From contig NC_058337.1 of NCBI RefSeq assembly GCF_905475395.1, positions 7,676,983 through 7,740,982 of the forward strand: a stretch of 64,000 nucleotides of DNA. Reading direction: 5' to 3'. The position numbers and the translations under genes are program-made. Numbering within the stretch: position 1 is the first letter of the stretch; each line of letters opens with the position of its first letter. This DNA comes from Chrysoperla carnea. Taxonomy: Eukaryota > Arthropoda > Insecta > Neuroptera > Chrysopidae. The notes under the pieces are model-generated. The model ran no database searches, was not told the origin of the DNA, and saw only the letters and a program-made list of their open reading frames with translations. Below, piece by piece: positions 16,901-62,100 of the stretch.

Positions 16901-17052
16901 TTATCACTCATTTATTCAGCTAGATTCGTTAATCAAAAGTATTAGTTAGAAAATAATATAGTTAAGAAAATTGAGCTTATCACTCCTTTATTCAGCTTGA
17001 TTCGTTAATCAAAAGTATTAGTTAGAAAATAATATAGTTAAGAAAATTGGAT
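16901..17052 (+). repeat. 76-bp tandem duplication
   Basis: Two adjacent copies with start-to-start spacing of 76 bp, each beginning TTATCACTC and ending GTTAAGAAAATTG, differing at a few bases. Confidence 0.85.
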
Positions 17053-19465: not shown

Positions 19466-20520
19466 TTTTTTTTTTTTTTTTTTGGTATCCTAATATTCTA
19501 TTATCAGTTCCTAAAGGAACTATAAATAGGTCTGATGTATAGATAACATGAACGGCAACTACCCAGTGATAGTCACCTAATAGAGTTTATAGTATGTGAA
19601 CTAGGTATAATTAAAACTATTTACGTAAATCTAAATCTTAAATCTAGAACACTTTATCTATTTAGTCTATTTACTCTTTCACTATTGTCTAAGAGATTGA
19701 TTACTTCAACATTTGGGTGCCTTTCAAGGCGAGTCAAGTAACTTTCACTGAACCGCGCACTGTGGGCACTTCAAGACTACGGTGAATGTCGTCATTACGC
19801 ACGTACCAGGGAGATTCACTAATTGTTCGTAACACTTTTGATTGAAACCGTTGAATAATTTCGATGTTACTGTTGCTAGCAGTTCCCCATACTTGAATCC
19901 CATAAGTCCACACAGGTTTTAAAATTGTTTTATACACTAGCACTTTATTGTCTAATGATAACTTTGATTTATGACTTAACAGCCAGTAAAGTTTCGAAAA
20001 TTTTAAATTTAATTGTTTTCTCTTGGACCAGATGTGTTTGCGCCAAGTAAGCCTTCTGTCTAAGTGAATTCCCAGGTATTTCACTCCGTTTGCCTGTGGA
20101 AAACTGACATTGTTCATTTTTACAGCTGGACAAGTTTCTCTTCTTAAAGAGAATGTTACTTGAACTGATTTTTGTTCATTTACTAGAATACGCCACTTTT
20201 GTAACCAGTTTTGTATTTTATTTATACTATTTTGTAGTCTTTGTGAAGCTACATTTGGGTCCACGTCTGTGGATAATATTGCAGTATCATCTGCAAAAGT
20301 AGTTATGGTATTTTTTCCGTCGGCTGGTAAGTCCGCGGTATATATCAAGTAGAGAGTTGGGCACAGAACGCTGCCCTGTGGAACGCCAGATTGAATAGGA
20401 AACAAGTCAGATAACTCTTCTTAAACTTTGACCTGAAAATGCTGATCTTCTAGATAAGATTTCAAAATACAATAATATGTACTTATGGAAGATGTTGTAA
20501 ATGTTTGAGAAAAATGGAAA
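19466..20520 (-). pseudogene. Jockey-clade LINE, 5'-truncated reverse transcriptase with poly-A tail
   Basis: The main frame (19734-20405) carries reverse transcriptase motifs SGVPQGSVLCPTLY and FADDTAILS, followed by a thumb/connection region ending HRSLEVPTVRG. Upstream, the same frame continues to ~20510 (ILKSYLEDQHFQVKV) across a TAA. Downstream, a +1 shift after 19734 restores the usual jockey C-terminus (LERHPNVEVINLLDN). A T-run at 19468-19482 is the poly-A tail of this minus-strand element. Endonuclease and gag regions are absent, so it is a dead 5'-truncated copy. Its 5' edge abuts the foldback element that begins at 20529. Confidence 0.85.
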
Positions 20521-29361: not shown

Positions 29362-29690
29362 CACCATACATTTCTTACCGTGTAAATATAGTACTGTGTA
29401 GCATAGTGTTGTAGTATTCGCTCCGTGCATGAGTTTTATTTCAGGGAATTATCATAGTAATAACACACCACTTTATTAATATAATTTTATGAATGGACAT
29501 ATAAGTCTATGGATTTTATTTTTGTTCACCATACATTTCTTACCGTGTAAATATAGTACTGTGTAGCATAGTGTTGTAGTATTCGCTCCGTGCATGAGTT
29601 TTATTTCAGGGAATTATCATAGTAATAACACACCACTTTATTAATATAATTTTATGAATGAATAAGTCTATGGATTTTATTTTTGTTTTA
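29362..29690 (+). repeat. 165-bp tandem duplication containing an R1 head
   Basis: Two adjacent copies starting CACCATACATTTCTTACCG at 29362 and 29527, differing mainly by a 6-bp deletion in the second. Each carries the R1 left end TTCGCTCCGTGCATGAG. Confidence 0.85.
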
Positions 29691-33404: not shown

Positions 33405-33471
33405 CCCGACTAGAAATTGTCCCAGTACTTATATTGGGGCCCGCTTGGGATTTGTTGGGGCATGGCCCAAT

Positions 33472-33873
33472 AGGTCTATCCCAATTGGGATCCGATTGGG
33501 AACCTTTTGGGATAGCCCAATGTAAAAATTGGCGATTTTATAAAAGTTTTTCCCAACTGGGGCCTATTTGGTTACTTATTGGGAAAGCCCAAATTAAATT
33601 AAAATAGGTCTTTCCCAATTGGGATCCAATTGGGAACCTTTTGGGATAGCCCAATGTAAAAATTGGCGATTTTATAATAGTTTTTCCCAACTGGGGCCTA
33701 TTTGGTTACTTATTGGGAAAGCCCAAATTAAATTAAAATAGGTCTATCCCAATTGGGATCCAATTGGGAACCTTTTGGGATAGCCCAATGTAAAAATAAG
33801 CGATTTTAAATAGTTTTTCCCAACTGGGGCCTATTTGGTAACTTATTGGGAAAGCCCAAATTAAATTAAATGA
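33472..33873 (+). repeat. 134-bp tandem repeat, three copies
   Basis: Copies start at 33472, 33606 and 33740 with AGGTCTWTCCCAATTGGGAT and contain CCTTTTGGGATAGCCCAATG and CCCAACTGGGGCCTATTTGG. Copies are nearly identical; the third loses a few bases. A shorter diverged relative follows at 33925-33965. Confidence 0.88.
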
Positions 33874-46800: not shown

Positions 46801-48978
46801 ATTGGCAAAAACGAAATGGCGGTCAGTGGTTACTAGGCAAAGCAATGGATACATTTTGTCCATTGGGACCGGCTGTGGTTACAAAAGAAGTTATCGACGA
46901 TCCCCACAATTTAGATATTAAATGTACTGTTAATGGACAAGAGAGACAGTGTGCAAATACAAATGAGTTGATATTTAAAGTTGATTTTATAATTTCCTAC
47001 TTATCAGAGTAAGTAACCTTTATTTATTTTTAATTTTTAAAGGTAAAATTAAGGTTTTAAAGGTACTTACTGATGCAGTCAACGCTTTTTGGAATATACG
47101 TCTATATATTTAGTGAGTTGCATTTAAGATGAAGACACCGTCATATTTTCGTTATTTATAGGAATATGGTTTTTAAATTTTTAGTATACTGGGTAATGGG
47201 TCTCAATTTTTAAGATAATTAACCGAAATCTGAACTTTATACTCAGCTCACTACAAATTGACAAATAGGGCCGATTCTTAATATTTTGCCTTGCTTCAGA
47301 GATGATTTTCATGACAAAATTCACATTTTTAATTTTTTCATTATTTCATTAATTCATTCCATAGCACACTAGTTATCAAAGTTTTTAACTTCCCACTATA
47401 ATAGGAAGTTATTGTAATGAGTCCGATTTTCGAAATCGTAATTTTCAACATATCCTTACGATTTATGGTTTGTACGTGGCATTAACACCAATTTGGAGAA
47501 GGAGTATGTATGTGAGTGTGTACATACGTACGTCCGTAAACATTTTTTTCGTCGTCGATATCGCGCGAACAAAAAATGATATCGACTTCGTTGAGGGGTC
47601 GATCGATGCGTAATAAAGGCAATATGATTCGAAAAGAATTTCATCCTGAATTTTGTAACTGGTGGTTTTTTTAGGTCTCTGATTGCGAATATGGCGATAA
47701 AAAAGATCCAGAGCGCACCTGGAGGTTGGTGCGCGTTGGTATCGAACGTTTTTTTCTATAAAGACCATTTTTGTTCAAATTGAATGAACAAACGCACAAA
47801 AAGCTAGATTTTTCCTATCAATGACTGTCTAAACTATTCGCTTTACAAAAAAATTTTCAAACAAATTGTATGCATATTTATAAAGAACAACTTTCTAATT
47901 TAAAGCGTCCATCTAATATTTGTTATTAATCAAAGTGAGGTTTTAATTGAAATTCGTTGCCGGTATAAGATGTGTCCCTTTGAAGCATTTTTCTCGATTA
48001 AATTTATTTATCGAGTTTCGAGTCAGTCAATTAAAAATGACATTCTGTATAAGGTGTGAGTGTCACCCGCGGAAAATATTATTTTTGCCCGGAGCGGCTA
48101 AATAGCTAGATAGGGCCCTGGATTAGGAGTGTTATGAAGATCGACATTATACCTTCTCTCAGACTATTAGTAAGTGTTTTGTATCAGAACACGAGGCAAA
48201 GAGAAATTTTAGTGTTTTGCAAATAGGAAAATTTCAAATTATGATAATTCAAAAACGGTCAGGGAATTTTTCTTATCAACATGGAAGTCAAGGAATTTCA
48301 AATTAATTTATTCGATTGCCATCTTGTGTTTATGATTCGGGAAAATTTCAAAAAAATGTGAACCAGGTCGTTACACACGGTGGGATTGTTTGGGTTTTGA
48401 GAATCAAAGTCCATTTTTGTGTCGTCTTAAACCATACGTTTGATTTACAATGTCTTAAAATGAGGTCGCGTTCAGAGTTTTGGAAAAGTTTTTTTCTGGA
48501 CCTTATAGAATTAACTTCTTGACAAATAGTGAATGAATATCATAAAATGTACTCTTACTATGAAAAATAGTTTCTTGTCTTTATTAACTTTATGTCCTAG
48601 CATGATGAACAAAAGTTTGAACCCTTCACCTTGGGATGATTCCTGGACACGGGCCTGATGTGAGCAAATGTAGAAAACTGCTATTTGTCGAAAGTGTTCA
48701 GATTGTTGGTCATAGTAGCTCACAAACGAATAATTGTAAATTACGTCAGTAAATCGCGTTGAGATTTAATCACTAAATACACTAATAATTTACTAGATTT
48801 ACAATAACACCTTCGATTTTTTTCTAGGTTATTTACATTATATCCAGGTGATGTAATTTTAACAGGGACACCTGCTGGAGTGGGTGTGTTTAGAAATCCT
48901 CCTCTATATTTACAAAAAGGTGATGTAATTGAAAGTGAAATTGAAGGTATCGGAAAAATGATAAATAAAGTAGTTTAA
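43867..48978 (+). CDS. FAHD2: Fumarylacetoacetate hydrolase domain-containing protein 2 (FAHD2-type), complete, four exons
   Basis: Exons 43867-44159, 44217-44433, 46680-47008 and 48828-48978 join in frame through GT-AG introns into 990 nt (329 residues plus TAA), close to the usual ~310-330 for this family. The N-terminus (~45 residues) is rich in Lys, Asn, Ser and Arg and looks like a mitochondrial presequence. The FAH-fold catalytic domain starts near VVCVGLNYSGHCEEQN. DYEVELAVIIGK supplies the two metal-binding glutamates and AQDITARDWQ the aspartate. PGDVILTGTPAGVGVF and the KGDVIESEIEGIG tail are textbook family motifs. Substrate is unproven; relatives act on acylpyruvates or oxaloacetate. 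A second Met lies four codons in. Poly-A signals follow the stop. Intron 2 carries an R2 fragment and a foldback. Confidence 0.93.
45379..45673 (+). repeat. R2 family element, truncated, in FAHD2 intron 2
   Basis: Terminal palindrome partly duplicated (GAAATATACATA twice), then the R2 order up to GAGATAGAACAAAA. A detached R2-like end (AACTCAGTTAATTGTTTG) lies at 46460-46491. Confidence 0.8.
45680..46032. repeat. Foldback element F2, in FAHD2 intron 2
   Basis: Palindrome of ~353 bp: AAAATGGAAA at the left and TTTCCATTTT at the right, TTACAGGCAGTTTTAAAA / TTTTAAAACTGCCTGTAA, GTCATAATGTTAATT / AATTAACATTATTACGT inside. Half a copy lies at 21155-21310. Confidence 0.82.
47393..47780. repeat. Dispersed repeat in FAHD2 intron 3
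   Basis: Begins with the hairpin AACTTCCCAC/TATAATAGGAAGTT, then GTCCGATTTTCGAAATCGTA and a GC-richer block with GATCCAGAGCGCACCTGGAG. I recall similar sequence in other insects; only one copy in this window. Overlapping frames on the minus strand show no domain. Confidence 0.45.
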
Positions 48979-50431
48979 AATAAAGTGTAAAGAATAAATG
49001 TTGGTTTTTTAATTTTAATCATGTACAATACTTAAAAATGATGTACTTAAAATAAATAATCACCCTACGCATTATACAATAAAACCAAATTAATTAGAAT
49101 TTTAACTTCTTTTAATTTAAAATTATTTCCTGTATATAATCCATTTTCATTTTCATTTATCCAATAGAAAGAATAATTCACGCCTAAAGGTGTAACCTCA
49201 TGAAGAAGCTTGCCTTAAAATTTACTAATCCGACTAGAATGTCTCGTGATAATAATAAAAGTTATTAACTTTTCTTTTTTTTAAAGAACAGCAATAGATC
49301 TTTTTCATGAAAAATTGAAATACTTTTTGTTTTTATGAAAATTTAGGTAACTCGAAAATTACGCATTTTTAAAAATAAAAACACTATGAAAAAAATGGTT
49401 AAAAAGTCATCATATTTGAAATAATTTAAAACTATTTTTATTGGCTAGTAGCCCATGATGTCAATTATTAAGTATTTCATATTTTCACACTGTCTTGACA
49501 TAGTTTGTATGTATCTTATTTATTAAATAACACGTTTATTTTCAATTTTACAATTCTACAATTTTAGTTCTTATCAATTATTTCCTAGGATCAATATTTT
49601 TCGATTTAGACCCGAAAAAAGGGGGTCGTGATTATTGTTTGTTACATAACTCGTTTATTTTTAATTTTACACGAAAAATGGTTATTACCAAAGTTTTTTG
49701 AAATTGAATTTCCTACACTTTTAATCCTTATCATTTTTTTCTTAGGATCGATATTTTTTTTTGGACCTAGTGTCAGAGCGAGTACCACCGACTTTCCTTA
49801 GCTTCTGGACGACGTCATCTATAGTTGTGATGAAGACTAAGATGGCCCCAGCTTGGTCCTGCTTGGCCCAGTAACCAGTATAGCTGACTAAAAAGGAACG
49901 GCTTCGCACTACACTAAATAAATGTCATATCTTACATTGGTCTCAGTGTATTTCGGAACGTACCCTTAGATAGAGGCTAAAGTAAAAAAGTGTTCAGCTG
50001 CTAACATCAAATACCAGTTCTGAAATTGACCAGAATGTGTAGCAAAAGGGGGATTGATGTTTAGATATCTATCCTATTTTTATTGCTTTGCGCACTTCTG
50101 TTAAAACTTGGAGGGTAGAGGGAAGGAGTACAATCTTACATGATCTTTTGACTCAAAAAGTGTCCACAAAATAGCATTTAATAAAAGGGCTATAATGGCG
50201 CTCGTGTAGCGGGAAAAGTGTAATTGTACAGGAGAGTGAGAAATCATTATACAAATGTATTATACAGCTTTATACTCCGTCCTTACTTTTCCTATGTCTA
50301 TGATGTACATACATGGTCCTCTCTGAAACAACAATGCCATCTTAATTTATACACCAATATGAATACCTCTGATATGAGTTAAATTTGGAAAAAATTATTT
50401 GCAGGATCGGGCCCGTTTTTTTGTGTAGGAC
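48979..50431. other. FAHD2 3' flank and gene-free stretch
   Basis: The first ~110 bp is the FAHD2 3' UTR (AATAAA-type signals near 48980-49000). 49530-49770 holds a diverged direct repeat (TTTATTTTTAATTTTAC and CTTAGGATCGATATTTTT-type blocks twice). No gene recognised. Confidence 0.5.
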
Positions 50432-50703
50432 ATCCCTGATAAAAAAGTCCGATTGAATTCCGATTCAAATTTCCAATTCATTCCGATTGAATTCTAATTC
50501 AATCCTATAGAATCCAATATGAAATTTTCAATTCGATCCCATTTATGAATTGCGATCAATTAAAAATATTCGATTAGTTCTATTGGATTGAATCGGAATT
50601 CAATCGGAATGAATTGAAATTTTTTTTCCAATTAAACCCGATTCATTCCGATTGGTTGAATTGGAAATTTCCGATTCATGAATCGGATTTTTTTATCAGG
50701 GAT
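50432..50703. mobile_element. Palindromic MITE, ~272 bp
   Basis: Ends ATCCCTGATAAAAAA and TTTTTTTATCAGGGAT. The interior is made of GATTGAATTCCGATT-type repeats that are themselves inverted. No coding capacity. Confidence 0.78.
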
Positions 50704-51760: not shown

Positions 51761-52376
51761 GTATGAGTCAGACACGTGTGTCTGCATTTGGCAGTGCGCA
51801 GTGTATCGGAAGTCTACAACGGAACGAATTTCTCTCCAGTAAGCAGGGCTGCCAGATTGTATAATCGGATACAAAAGTGTATAATATGGTTATTTTATGT
51901 ATCCAGTTGATATAGCGGATTGCTTCGTATAATTGGATACAAAAATAAAAATTCAAACGTCAAGCAAATTTTGTGAGAGTTAAAATACCGATTTGAGATA
52001 ACGAGAGATCGAACATTTCTTAATCGAAATTGTCGCTTTCTGAGTAATATTCGTTAGCATTACAAGTAAACGTAAAAGTGACTTTTTAACCCAGCGCCAC
52101 TTGCTACTGGAACTGTTTACAGACTATTTTTTAACAATTTTGTCGCTTTGTATAATGAGATTTGATTCTGTATAATTTCAGTGGCCGAGCGGTATAAAAT
52201 AAGTTGGCTCTACTGGCTCTGTCTACTGGCTCTCGCAGTGTAAAATAGAACGTACCCTAAGATACTTAGCCTCCATACTTAAAAATATTGCGAATGGCGT
52301 TCTTTGTAAATTGCATAGAAGTAATATCAAACCTTTTTGGTAAATTGTCATAATTTGAGTGAACCGAATAAAAGAA

Positions 52377-53795
52377 ATGGAAAATAATTTATTTGATAAT
52401 GTAAATAATCATTCTTTTATCGATGAAGAAAACTTTAAATTTAAAAAAGAGTTACACAGTGAATTTATTATTAAAAATGAAATATTTGATGAAAGTGATT
52501 CTATGGAACATGAATCAATTAAAGAAGAAAATAATACAACGGAAGATCATGAAATAATTAAAAAGGAAATACTAGAAGAAAATGTTACAGCAAAACACAA
52601 ACGGATTGATTTTAATGAAGAAGTTTCCATGGATAAATATAAAAAAATTAAACTTGAACATCAATTAAATACAGAATTTATTATAAAAGATGAAATATTT
52701 GATGAAAGTGATTCTATGGAACATGAATCAATTAAAGAAGAAAATAATACAACGGAAGATCATGAAATAATTAAAAAGGAAATACTAGAAGAAAATGTTA
52801 CAGCAAAACACAAACGGATTGATTTTAATGAAGAAGTTTCCATGGATAAATATAAAAAAATTAAACTTGAACATCAATTAAATACAGAATTTATTATAAA
52901 AGATGAAATATTTGATGAAGATGATTTAGAACATCAATCAATTCAAAAAGAAGACAAGAATATTTCATGTGACGTTTGTCATGCAAAATTAGCTGATCAA
53001 TACCGTTTAATTGAACATAAACGAATACACACTGGAGAAAAACCTTTTTCTTGTGAAGTTTGTGATAAATCATTTACTCAGCGAAAACGTTTAACAGCAC
53101 ATAAACGGACCCATACTGGAGAAAAACCTTTTTCTTGTGAAGTTTGTGATAAATCATTTACTCGGCGAAACAATTTAAAAAGACATAAACGGACTCATAC
53201 TGGAGAAAAACCTTTTCCTTGTGAAGTTTGTGATAAATCATTTTTTCACAAAGAAGGTTTAGAGTGTCACAAACGGACTCATACTGGAGAAAAACCTTTT
53301 TCTTGTGAAGTTTGTGATAAATCATTTTTTCACAAAAAAAGTTTCGAGTATCACAAACGGACTCATACTGGAGAAAAACCATTTTCTTGTGAAGTTTGTG
53401 ATGAATCATTTACTCAGCGAAGCAATTTAACAACACATAAACGGACTCATACTGGAGAAAAACCTTTTTCTTGTGAAGTTTGTGATAAATCATTTACTCA
53501 GCGAATCAGTTTAACAGCACATAAACGGACTCATACCGGAGAAAAACCTTTTTCTTGTGAAGTTTGTGATAAATCATTTTTTCACAAAGAAGGTTTAGAG
53601 TATCACAAACGGACTCATACTGGAGAAAAACCTTTTTCTTGTGAAGTTTGTGATAAATCATTTATTCAGCGAACCAATTTAACAGCACATAAACGGACTC
53701 ATACTGGAGAAAAACCTTTTTCTTGTGAAGTTTGTGATAAATCATTTACTCGGCGAACCACTTTAAAAGCACATAAACGGACTCATACTGGATAA
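52377..53795 (+). CDS. C2H2 zinc-finger protein, single exon, 472 residues
   Basis: Probable sequence-specific DNA-binding regulator. Starting at ATG 52377 (the first in frame), residues 1-~190 are acidic and Lys-rich and contain a 71-residue unit present twice and a third time in part. Ten C2H2 fingers follow from residue 198, each 28 residues, joined by TGEKPF linkers; the finger consensus is CEVCDKSF-x5-L-x2-HKRTH. Finger 1 (CDVCHAKL) is diverged. The frame stops at TAA 53793-53795 where the next linker should read TGEKP, yet four more fingers follow in frame (next entry). No ZAD, BTB or KRAB domain is visible. Intact coding and a uniform array suggest a recently active gene. Target and partners unknown. 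Confidence 0.88.
   Translation: MENNLFDNVNNHSFIDEENFKFKKELHSEFIIKNEIFDESDSMEHESIKEENNTTEDHEIIKKEILEENVTAKHKRIDFNEEVSMDKYKKIKLEHQLNTEFIIKDEIFDESDSMEHESIKEENNTTEDHEIIKKEILEENVTAKHKRIDFNEEVSMDKYKKIKLEHQLNTEFIIKDEIFDEDDLEHQSIQKEDKNISCDVCHAKLADQYRLIEHKRIHTGEKPFSCEVCDKSFTQRKRLTAHKRTHTGEKPFSCEVCDKSFTRRNNLKRHKRTHTGEKPFPCEVCDKSFFHKEGLECHKRTHTGEKPFSCEVCDKSFFHKKSFEYHKRTHTGEKPFSCEVCDESFTQRSNLTTHKRTHTGEKPFSCEVCDKSFTQRISLTAHKRTHTGEKPFSCEVCDKSFFHKEGLEYHKRTHTGEKPFSCEVCDKSFIQRTNLTAHKRTHTGEKPFSCEVCDKSFTRRTTLKAHKRTHTG
52461..52949 (+). repeat. 213-bp coding tandem repeat (2.3 copies)
   Basis: Copies begin at 52461, 52674 and 52887 (GAATTTATTAT). The first two differ at only about two bases in 213, both near the start; the third is partial. 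The unit is 71 codons, so the frame is kept. Confidence 0.92.
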
Positions 53796-54161
53796 AAACG
53801 TTTTTCTTGTGAAGTTTGTGATAAATCATTTGCTCAGCGAAACAATTTAATAGCACATAAACGGACTCATACTGGATAAAAACCTTTTTCTTGTGAAGTT
53901 TGTGATAAATCATTTTTTCACAAAAAAGGTTTAGAGTATCACAAACGGACTCATACTGGATAAAAACCTTTTTCTTGTGAAGTTTGTGATAAATCATTTA
54001 CTTGGCGAACCACTTTAAAAGCACATAAACGGACTCATACTGGATAAAAACGTTTTTCTTGTGAAGTTTGTGATAAATCATTTGCTCAGCGAAACAATTT
54101 AATAGCACATAAACGGACTCATACTGGAGAAAAACCTTTTTCCTCTCAAACTTGTCGATAA
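53796..54161 (+). pseudogene. In-frame continuation of the zinc-finger array past stop codons
   Basis: Four further fingers (11-14) follow in the same frame with intact Cys and His: [42 protein letters not shown] and [14 protein letters not shown]. Three more TAA codons, at 53877, 53961 and 54045, lie exactly 84 bp apart and, like the one at 53793, replace the Glu codon of the linker. The last linker is intact (TGEKPF) and the frame ends at TAA 54159-54161 after a diverged SSQTCR. Fingers 10-11 and 13-14 are near-identical, so a 252-bp unit was duplicated. Either a decayed C-terminus, or an extension reached only by stop-codon readthrough. Confidence 0.8.
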
Positions 54162-59138: not shown

Positions 59139-62100
59139 ATGATCACAATTTGCCCAAAAATTCCAAAAACCTTGTATAATAAACATTTCAAAGTGAGTTT
59201 TTTTTTTAAAATATCTTTTAAATTATTCAAAACTGATATATATTATAGGTTATCGCCTATTATGTCATACGTCTTTTAATTGGATATTTTGAGTACTTAA
59301 ATTTAAAATTAAATTCAAATTATTTTTAGCTTCATGGAAACAATGCATTAAAGTGTTACAGTCTACATAGAGAATATTCTCAAAAAGTTTCATCTTCCTC
59401 TAAACCGGTATCGTTAGGAGGGTATTATGCCTTCGGCACATTGACACTTATCGGTGGTGCTACGTTGTGTTACGCTAAATATGATGATCAGTTTCGTAAA
59501 TATTTAAAAGGTAATGTGCCCTTTACTGACGATCTTATTAAATTCATATTCCAAGAAGAATTGACTTACGAACAGCGATATCAAAATATTCAAAACACTG
59601 TTTCCAAATATATACCAAGCTTCTTGTCTACACAAACTCCGGAGTCTACTTTAACATCAGCATCCAAATCAAAGATTGTGCAAGAATTTCCTGAAAAGTC
59701 TGGAAGTGGAAAGGCAGGTTAGATCAAATTTTATTATGTGACTAAACACGCATTTAGACAATTATTTTTTAAATAAATTTTTACGTGAATTAACTTTGCA
59801 TGTGAGTTTAGATTTTAGTTTTTTTCTTTTGTCTTTTTTAAATCTAGCAGATTCAACACCTAAAAATTTAGAAGCCAAATCAACAGTTGTTTCAATGCCA
59901 ATAGATCCTATTTTGGAGCCATATTCAAAAAGGTCTGAAGATAAGGAAACTTTAAAAGTTGCAGAAGAAGGTATTGTGATTTTAATAAAGTTTATTTATT
60001 TCAAGTTTAAACATTATGGAATAAGTGTGCTTTTTTGTTAGGAATAAGCTACAAAAAGTGGCTATTTGAATGTTTATTATACCATGTATATATGAAATAT
60101 ACATAGTATATTAAGTTTAGTCCCAAGTTTGTAACGCTTAAAAATAATGATGTTAGGAAAAAAATTTTGCCATAGGTGTTCATAAAATCACCTTATTAGT
60201 CCATTTCCGGTTGTCCGTCCGTCCTTCCGTCCGTCTGTAGACACGATAACTCAAAAACGAAAAAAGATATCGAGCTTACTCAGGACGTAAAAAGTGAGGT
60301 CAAGTTCGTAAATGAGCATCATAGGTCAATTGGGTCATCTTGTAAACCGTTAGAGATAGAACAAAAGTTCAAATGTAAAAAATGTTCCTTATCAAAAATT
60401 AAACAACTTTTGTTTGAAACATTTTTTCGTAAACATCACTGTTTACCCGTGAGGGCGCCAATTAGGCGGAAATTTTATAATATGTACTATACTTGATTAT
60501 CAGTTATGTATGTGTCACATGTTTGTATGTGTAATGTGATAAGGAAATCAACACTGACTATGCATGGTATTTCAACAATTAACTCAGGCAATTGTTTGTT
60601 TTCACTTGTTGTAAAATTAGAATTCCACCTAGCTGAAACAAATAGAGTTATGTACAGCGGCAAGCGTCAACGTTATTTTTTATAAAATGAGCGACATAAA
60701 AATTTATTAATATTGAAAGTTGATATTTCGAGATATGCATACTAAATTAATAAAAGTAATTCTCTAACCTTAAAAAAGAGAACACATGGTAATGTTGAAT
60801 AAACCGTAGCAATAATGACTGGTCAATATGATTTTCGAGGTAACAAAACCGAAAAATGTCCAGAAGGTCGAAATTTAATAGTACAAATCCCATTTTTACG
60901 AGACCGGACACAAACTGTTCGTATGAGGGTGCAGAAAAAAGTCTATTGGGTCAAAAAGTGTGGTCTACGCGTATGTGCGCACTTACAAGTTCGTAGTAAC
61001 CAATCGTTCAGAAAAATTGTGCAATTACATTCAGTAAGTGAAACTGAACTTATTGAAATAAAAAAAATAACTCCTTTAATTTAATGCAGAAAAAATTCTC
61101 TGTAGTCTGGTATATATCTCCATAATCGAAGTAATTTGTGTTTAAAATGAATAAAACTTATTATTGAGTAAGAATATTCTATTCTTTTATTATTCCAGAA
61201 GTAAGAAAACCAGAAGTCAAACAAATATCTGTAGCAGCCAAACCAAAGCACATTGTTAATATTGAAAAAGAAATAAACGAGGTGTCTGGGACCGCATTGA
61301 AATCCTATGGATTAGCAGTTACATCCTTACGTAATTTTACTAGAGATGTTGACACTTTAGTAGAACAAAATTTTGAAAGAGTTGATTCAAAAGTATGGCA
61401 TAATTTAAAACTATTATCCGAACAAAAAAATCAGGCAATCGAAAATGCAGAAAAAAATGCTAAAGAAGCGCAAGAAACTATTCAGATGTATAAGAAAATG
61501 TTTGAACGTAAAGATTTGAAATTGGATGACGAAAATTTAGCCTCAACAATGCAAGCTATTAATCGTGCTGAAAAAGAGCTAAGAGAAGTTCAAAATAGTT
61601 ATAATAAGGAAGTGCTAAATGCTAAAATCACTGAACGCTTCTGGGATAAAGTTGAATATGCTCGAAAACAATACCAAGAAGAATTGGGAATTTTATGCCC
61701 ATCGATTAAATTAGAAGATACTAAATTGAATTTGTCTGAAGGTGAAATAGATTTGTTCATTTTACACACACAGAAGAAGATTCAATATTTACAAAAAGAG
61801 TTAGCTAAATTAGATACAAAACGTGAATATGAATTAGAAAATGCAATTCAAAAAGCTAAAGAGTCCGGTAATGTAGACCCCTTGGTTGAAGAAGAATTGA
61901 AAATTTTATTGGATCGTGAAAAACGACAATTAATGGAAGTTTTCCAGAAAAAGGTTATAAACTAATAAAATTACATGCTATAATACAATGAATAAACCGG
62001 AAAATAAATAGGGAAGCAGCACCGATTTTAATGAAAATTCTTGTAATGTGTTTATAGAACCCCAAGGAACGAACATTCAGCCAACTTAACCGAAATGACT

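Follow-up and report, generated by a model that had tools for sequence, protein, structure and literature searches.

Four phased in-frame TAA codons in a zinc-finger array of Chrysoperla carnea: a gene end very probably multiplied with its repeat unit

A ten-finger gene and the array behind its stop

The window analyzed here is a stretch of 64,000 nucleotides of the Chrysoperla carnea genome, starting at position 7,676,983 of the contig designated C1. It harbors a gene that appears to encode a ten-finger C2H2 protein, with translation very probably terminating at the TAA at 53793. Further fingers lie in the same frame behind this codon. The features of the locus, and its relation to two paralogs termed L039 and L040, are as follows.

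52377..53795, plus strand: gene for a ten-finger C2H2 protein, a 472-codon frame from the ATG at 52377 to the TAA at 53793-53795
52461..52952, plus strand: in-frame tandem duplication in the N-terminal part, 213-bp unit in 2.3 copies
53793..53795, plus strand: first TAA, in a linker, then AAA CGT; same junction in L039 and L040
53796..53876, plus strand: post-stop finger 11 (KRF...AQRNNLIAH), same sequence as finger 14 except at the linker codon
53877..53879, plus strand: second TAA, then AAA CCT
53880..53960, plus strand: post-stop finger 12 (FHKKGLEYH), 1 base from finger 8
53961..53963, plus strand: third TAA, then AAA CCT
53964..54044, plus strand: post-stop finger 13 (TWRTTLKAH), 1 base from finger 10
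54045..54047, plus strand: fourth TAA, then AAA CGT, adjoining the inherited 3' end
54048..54128, plus strand: post-stop finger 14
54129..54161, plus strand: decayed finger 15, first Cys lost and frame shifted; same wreck in L040
54193..54682, plus strand: 3' flank common to the window and L040, 9 of 490 bases differing

The list of open reading frames opens the same frame at the GTG at 52359 instead of the ATG at 52377. Fingers 1-10 are preceded by an acidic N-terminal part in which no Pfam domain was found. The protein belongs to the C2H2 class, with ten tandem C-x2-C-x12-H-x3-H units and TGEKP-type linkers before the first stop (Pfam zf-C2H2, E 4.7e-50), and the 472-aa protein matched 12 Pfam families at E of 0.01 or less, neither KRAB nor ZAD being one of them. 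L039 lacks the 213-bp duplication; in L040 a 120-bp repeat is present in four copies. In fingers 2-10, the codons at positions that we take, by convention, to contact DNA showed a pN of 0.524 versus a pS of 0.245 (36 pairs summed), and the codons outside both the helix and the first linker codon showed a pN of 0.010 versus a pS of 0.097 (also 36 pairs summed). The coding units before the stop behave as a live finger family. Judged from the sequence, the gene would not be classed as a pseudogene, its main frame of 472 codons being intact and its stop being the stop of the paralogs.

The window also contains an open frame with a reverse transcriptase match on the minus strand (19737-20405; PF00078, E 8.6e-15) and an open frame with a Mitofilin match (61282-61965; PF09731, E 1.7e-14). 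Three tandem arrays, each with 97% matches, are located at 33469-33870 (134 bp x 3), 29362-29687 (165 bp x 2) and 16901-17049 (76 bp x 2). A dispersed repeat of about 100 bp occurs on both strands at nine places in the window (lowest bases 5428, 13658, 22237, 30127, 32568, 37148, 39038, 46148 and 60336), and also in L039 (169-269).

The four TAA codons at 53793, 53877, 53961 and 54045 occupy the GAA position of the HTG-E-KPF linker. As originally predicted, they are in frame at intervals of 84 bp, each replacing the Glu of the linker behind one of fingers 10-13, and all Cys and His residues of fingers 11-14 are retained. Each of the four post-stop stretches on its own matched zf-C2H2 (PF00096, E 2.8e-8 to 8.1e-6). 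The same prediction described a normal linker and a final stop after finger 14. The GAA linker is present; the simple end is not, since a wrecked finger 15 intervenes, with its first Cys changed to Ser and its frame changed just before the TAA at 54159-54161. Outside the linker codon, fingers 11 and 14 match at all 81 bases, and between fingers 10 and 13 there is a single difference in 81. These are therefore not four separately preserved fingers. Two kinds of stop unit were distinguished, those at 53793 and 54045 continuing with AAA CGT (Lys-Arg) and those at 53877 and 53961 with AAA CCT (Lys-Pro). The proposal that one G-to-T change, copied by tandem duplication, had given three or four of the stops thus holds as to the copying, but plain copying of one unit is insufficient to explain all four.

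Paralogs and stop-bearing linkers across the genome

We searched the genome (559 Mb, 337 contigs) with the array and obtained at least 64 matching places, the best 40 of 615 candidates having been scored. The window, L039, L040 and 20 regions around places among the matches listed, 23 stretches in total, were compared, and they contain 31 open frames with at least three fingers. Three loci outside the window are relevant here.

L040: C1, about 11.39 Mb, minus strand; with L039, closest paralog among the matches listed
L039: C1, about 12.95 Mb; with L040, closest paralog among the matches listed
L052 array: C1:83248000-83257000; TGA in place of a first Cys

The linker spelling CAYACNGGN-GAR-AARCSNTTYNNNTGY was found at 1,732 places genome-wide, and the same spelling with TRR for GAR at 6. 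Stop-bearing linkers thus make up 6 of 1,738 of this spelling, all of them with TAA, four in the window gene and one each in L040 and L039. A looser linker spelling returned the same six TAA places versus 1,583 with GAA, and a backward-pattern control gave no places in each of the four linker-spelling searches. Among linkers of the two spellings searched, the stop accordingly appears as a private mark of a three-gene subfamily, and its confinement to three genes would be explained most simply by one mutation before these genes parted. An exact-pattern search for relatives gave no places in either viral_contigs or genome_contigs, which are viral and prokaryotic collections and little informative in this respect.

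The open frames of L039 and L040 both end in HTG-TAA-KRF, the TAA and the adjacent CCT-to-CGT (Pro-to-Arg) change being those seen at 53793 and 54045. The frame of L039 is lost within its first post-stop finger, and no complete in-frame finger is left behind the stop. In L040 the stop is followed by one intact finger, a Cys-to-Ser wreck, a further frameshifted finger with stops, and a relic THTRKI-stop. Six of the 31 open frames that have at least three fingers terminate in HTRKI-stop, and this ending is therefore probably an old end of the family. The wrecked finger of the finger 15 type is common to the window and L040, and a frameshifted last finger is common to L039 and L040; at least one of these two decays would therefore predate the split of the three genes, unless sequence was later exchanged among them.

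The three genes appear to have parted recently, as indicated by the 3' flank (9/490) and by the other shared blocks outside the arrays, which are about 96-98% alike. Changes in the N-terminal part are few, with synonymous and non-synonymous counts of 1 and 5 between the window and L039, 1 and 2 between the window and L040, and 0 and 3 between L039 and L040. L040 is one base short near its start, which breaks its first frame. The DNA at 48235-50433 is about 96.9% like the DNA 3' of the L039 gene but in the window is located upstream of the gene, and 48235-50028 is about 96-97% like the corresponding L040 DNA; the gene and the flank block are thus in swapped order in the window relative to L039 and L040.

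Complete in-frame fingers within 250 codons behind the stop were found in 3 of the 31 open frames, those of the window, L040 and L052. In L052 the TGA is followed in frame by the rest of the interrupted finger and two complete fingers, and then by an HTRKI end. The cases of L052 and L040 indicate that the window is not alone in having an array truncated by a stop. A multiplied stop was seen in the window gene only, among the 23 stretches compared.

Origin of the repeated stop

We consider it very likely that the stop is an inherited gene end lying inside a copied repeat unit, and that its repetition reflects ordinary repeat evolution rather than a hidden longer protein. A GAA-to-TAA change in a linker, most simply a single event, would have occurred in the ancestor of the three paralogs. 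The ancestral array would have been ended early by this TAA, and the fingers behind it would have begun to decay, as the tails of both paralogs have. As the stop is part of a tandemly repeated 84-bp unit, unequal exchange could subsequently have duplicated it in the window copy together with the neighboring units, leaving four stop-bearing units in what would be an untranslated tail. One such duplication is visible. Fingers 10-11 and fingers 13-14, including the TAA between the members of each pair, are separated by 252 bp, and only 1 of 165 bases distinguishes them (95% interval 0.0002-0.0333), which marks the post-stop fingers as young copies; we read this as a 252-bp shift between fingers 10-11 and fingers 13-14 that included the stop. 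Since the stop at 54045 adjoins the inherited 3' end (finger 14, then the wrecked finger), it is probably in the original position, and the stop at 53793 would then be its copy and would now be the first stop met by the ribosome. The sequences themselves show the shared stop, the decayed paralog tails and the 252-bp copy. Termination at 53793, a single origin, how many exchanges took place and in what order, and the absence of a protein product of the tail are what we infer from these comparisons.

Several observations count against this explanation. The CCT-type stops (53877 and 53961) do not follow from simple duplication alone; they could have arisen by an exchange with its breakpoint in the six bases that separate the two differences, by a back change, or by a second GAA-to-TAA change. 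The body of fingers 11 and 14 has its nearest source at least 5 bases away among the units compared. The intact first post-stop finger of L040 also stands against it.

The original prediction had offered, as one possibility, that the C-terminus was being pseudogenized by the spread of a stop-bearing unit. The spread is upheld, but the presence of the TAA-AAA-CGT junction in L039 and L040, with 6 of 6 stop-bearing linkers confined to the three genes, suggests that the stop is older and was already the gene end. Given that the gene would have ended at this stop even before it was duplicated, it is mainly a non-coding tail that would have been rebuilt by array rearrangement.

A series of independent stop mutations, arising in place in a 14-finger protein now becoming a pseudogene, is an improbable alternative. 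Two TAA units with CCT and two with CGT do imply more than one event. However, no stop was found outside the three genes among 1,738 linkers of one spelling, and the same stop with the neighboring CGT ends the frames of both L039 and L040. The consensus unit allows 15 one-step changes to a stop, so that, if these nonsense changes were equally likely, the probability of three independent repeats of the first one would be about (1/15)^3. About equally improbable, in our estimation, is a graded UAA ladder giving 10 to 14 fingers or, less boldly, a tail of untranslated but intact fingers, kept in reserve, from which unequal exchange could bring units back into the coding array. An assembly error, with mis-stacked or mis-called copies, appears slightly less likely still: tandem arrays can assemble poorly and fingers 11 and 14 do not differ outside the linker codon, but the same TAA occurs at two other loci on the same contig, about 3.7 and 5.2 Mb away, and single-base differences as well as the CCT or CGT codon set the copies apart.

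The least likely reading is that of leaky or programmed readthrough of the UAA ladder, by which the gene would produce isoforms with 10 to 14 fingers, as the original prediction had proposed. In its favor, no further interruption of the frame occurs between the stops, all Cys and His residues are kept, L040 also has one intact finger behind its stop, and a near-cognate insertion at the stop would leave a usable linker. In the two paralogs, however, the downstream frame is not conserved, being broken in L039 without a single complete finger and in L040 after one. Frameshifts and lost Cys or His behind the stop in relatives were named in that prediction as the result that would speak against it, and the paralogs show such decay, with L040 keeping one intact finger first. 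All four stops are UAA followed by A and lack the leaky context (TGA, 3' C) for which we used PMC5100048 as a yardstick; in the available part of that study, TGA prevails among mosquito and fly readthrough candidates, and readthrough was lost more often at TAA and TAG. A stable RNA structure accompanies readthrough in some cases only; here folding of the 120 nt downstream of the first stop did not surpass that of shuffled sequences (z 0.61), whereas the value for a coding stretch from this array was -2.75. The argument that the post-stop fingers show no other decay is uninformative, because the units are very young copies: with duplicated pairs this near to identity hardly any decay is expected, whether the tail is translated or not, and the youth of the copies explains the preservation of the post-stop fingers.

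Comparison with known systems and implications

The preferred reading, an inherited stop multiplied with its unit, can be set beside several described cases. Mouse Gm8935b, described in PMC5363842, is a KRAB zinc-finger gene that arose by retrotransposition and carries a premature stop. It resembles the window gene in that a C2H2 array is cut by an in-frame stop and finger sequence is left behind, and tandem duplication of finger units is reported for its family. It differs in that its mutation density rises sharply 3' of the stop, whereas the post-stop fingers of the window are fresh copies; in addition, the stop of the window gene stands in four units and its protein has no KRAB match. PRDM9 shares 84-bp C2H2 units, and PMC5048142 mentions both degenerate 3' fingers and cases in which a stop interrupts the 3'-most fingers, but its accessible portion mentions no repeated in-frame stop per unit, and the likeness is one of array features only. 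The fly and mosquito readthrough genes, so far as the available part of PMC5100048 describes them, are like the window gene in that an open frame continues behind the stop; they were identified from conservation of the frame downstream and mostly have TGA, whereas the window gene has TAA and its paralogs have broken frames. Within the same genome, L052 has a stop with in-frame fingers behind it, like the window gene, but this stop is single, at another codon and not copied. Among the papers on stops in finger arrays that we consulted, we recognized none describing an in-frame stop repeated from one finger unit to the next, although such a case may exist in print.

The tail of the window gene would in all likelihood represent ordinary array evolution with an unusual look, in which an inherited terminal stop lay within the repeat unit and was multiplied with it. 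This suggests that the exchange by which finger arrays are remodeled can also multiply a stop contained in a repeat unit, and that a stop multiplied in this way can leave an intact-looking open tail that mimics readthrough. Cys and His residues kept behind a stop in a young tandem array are accordingly no evidence of translation, which calls for caution in gene annotation and in screens for readthrough.
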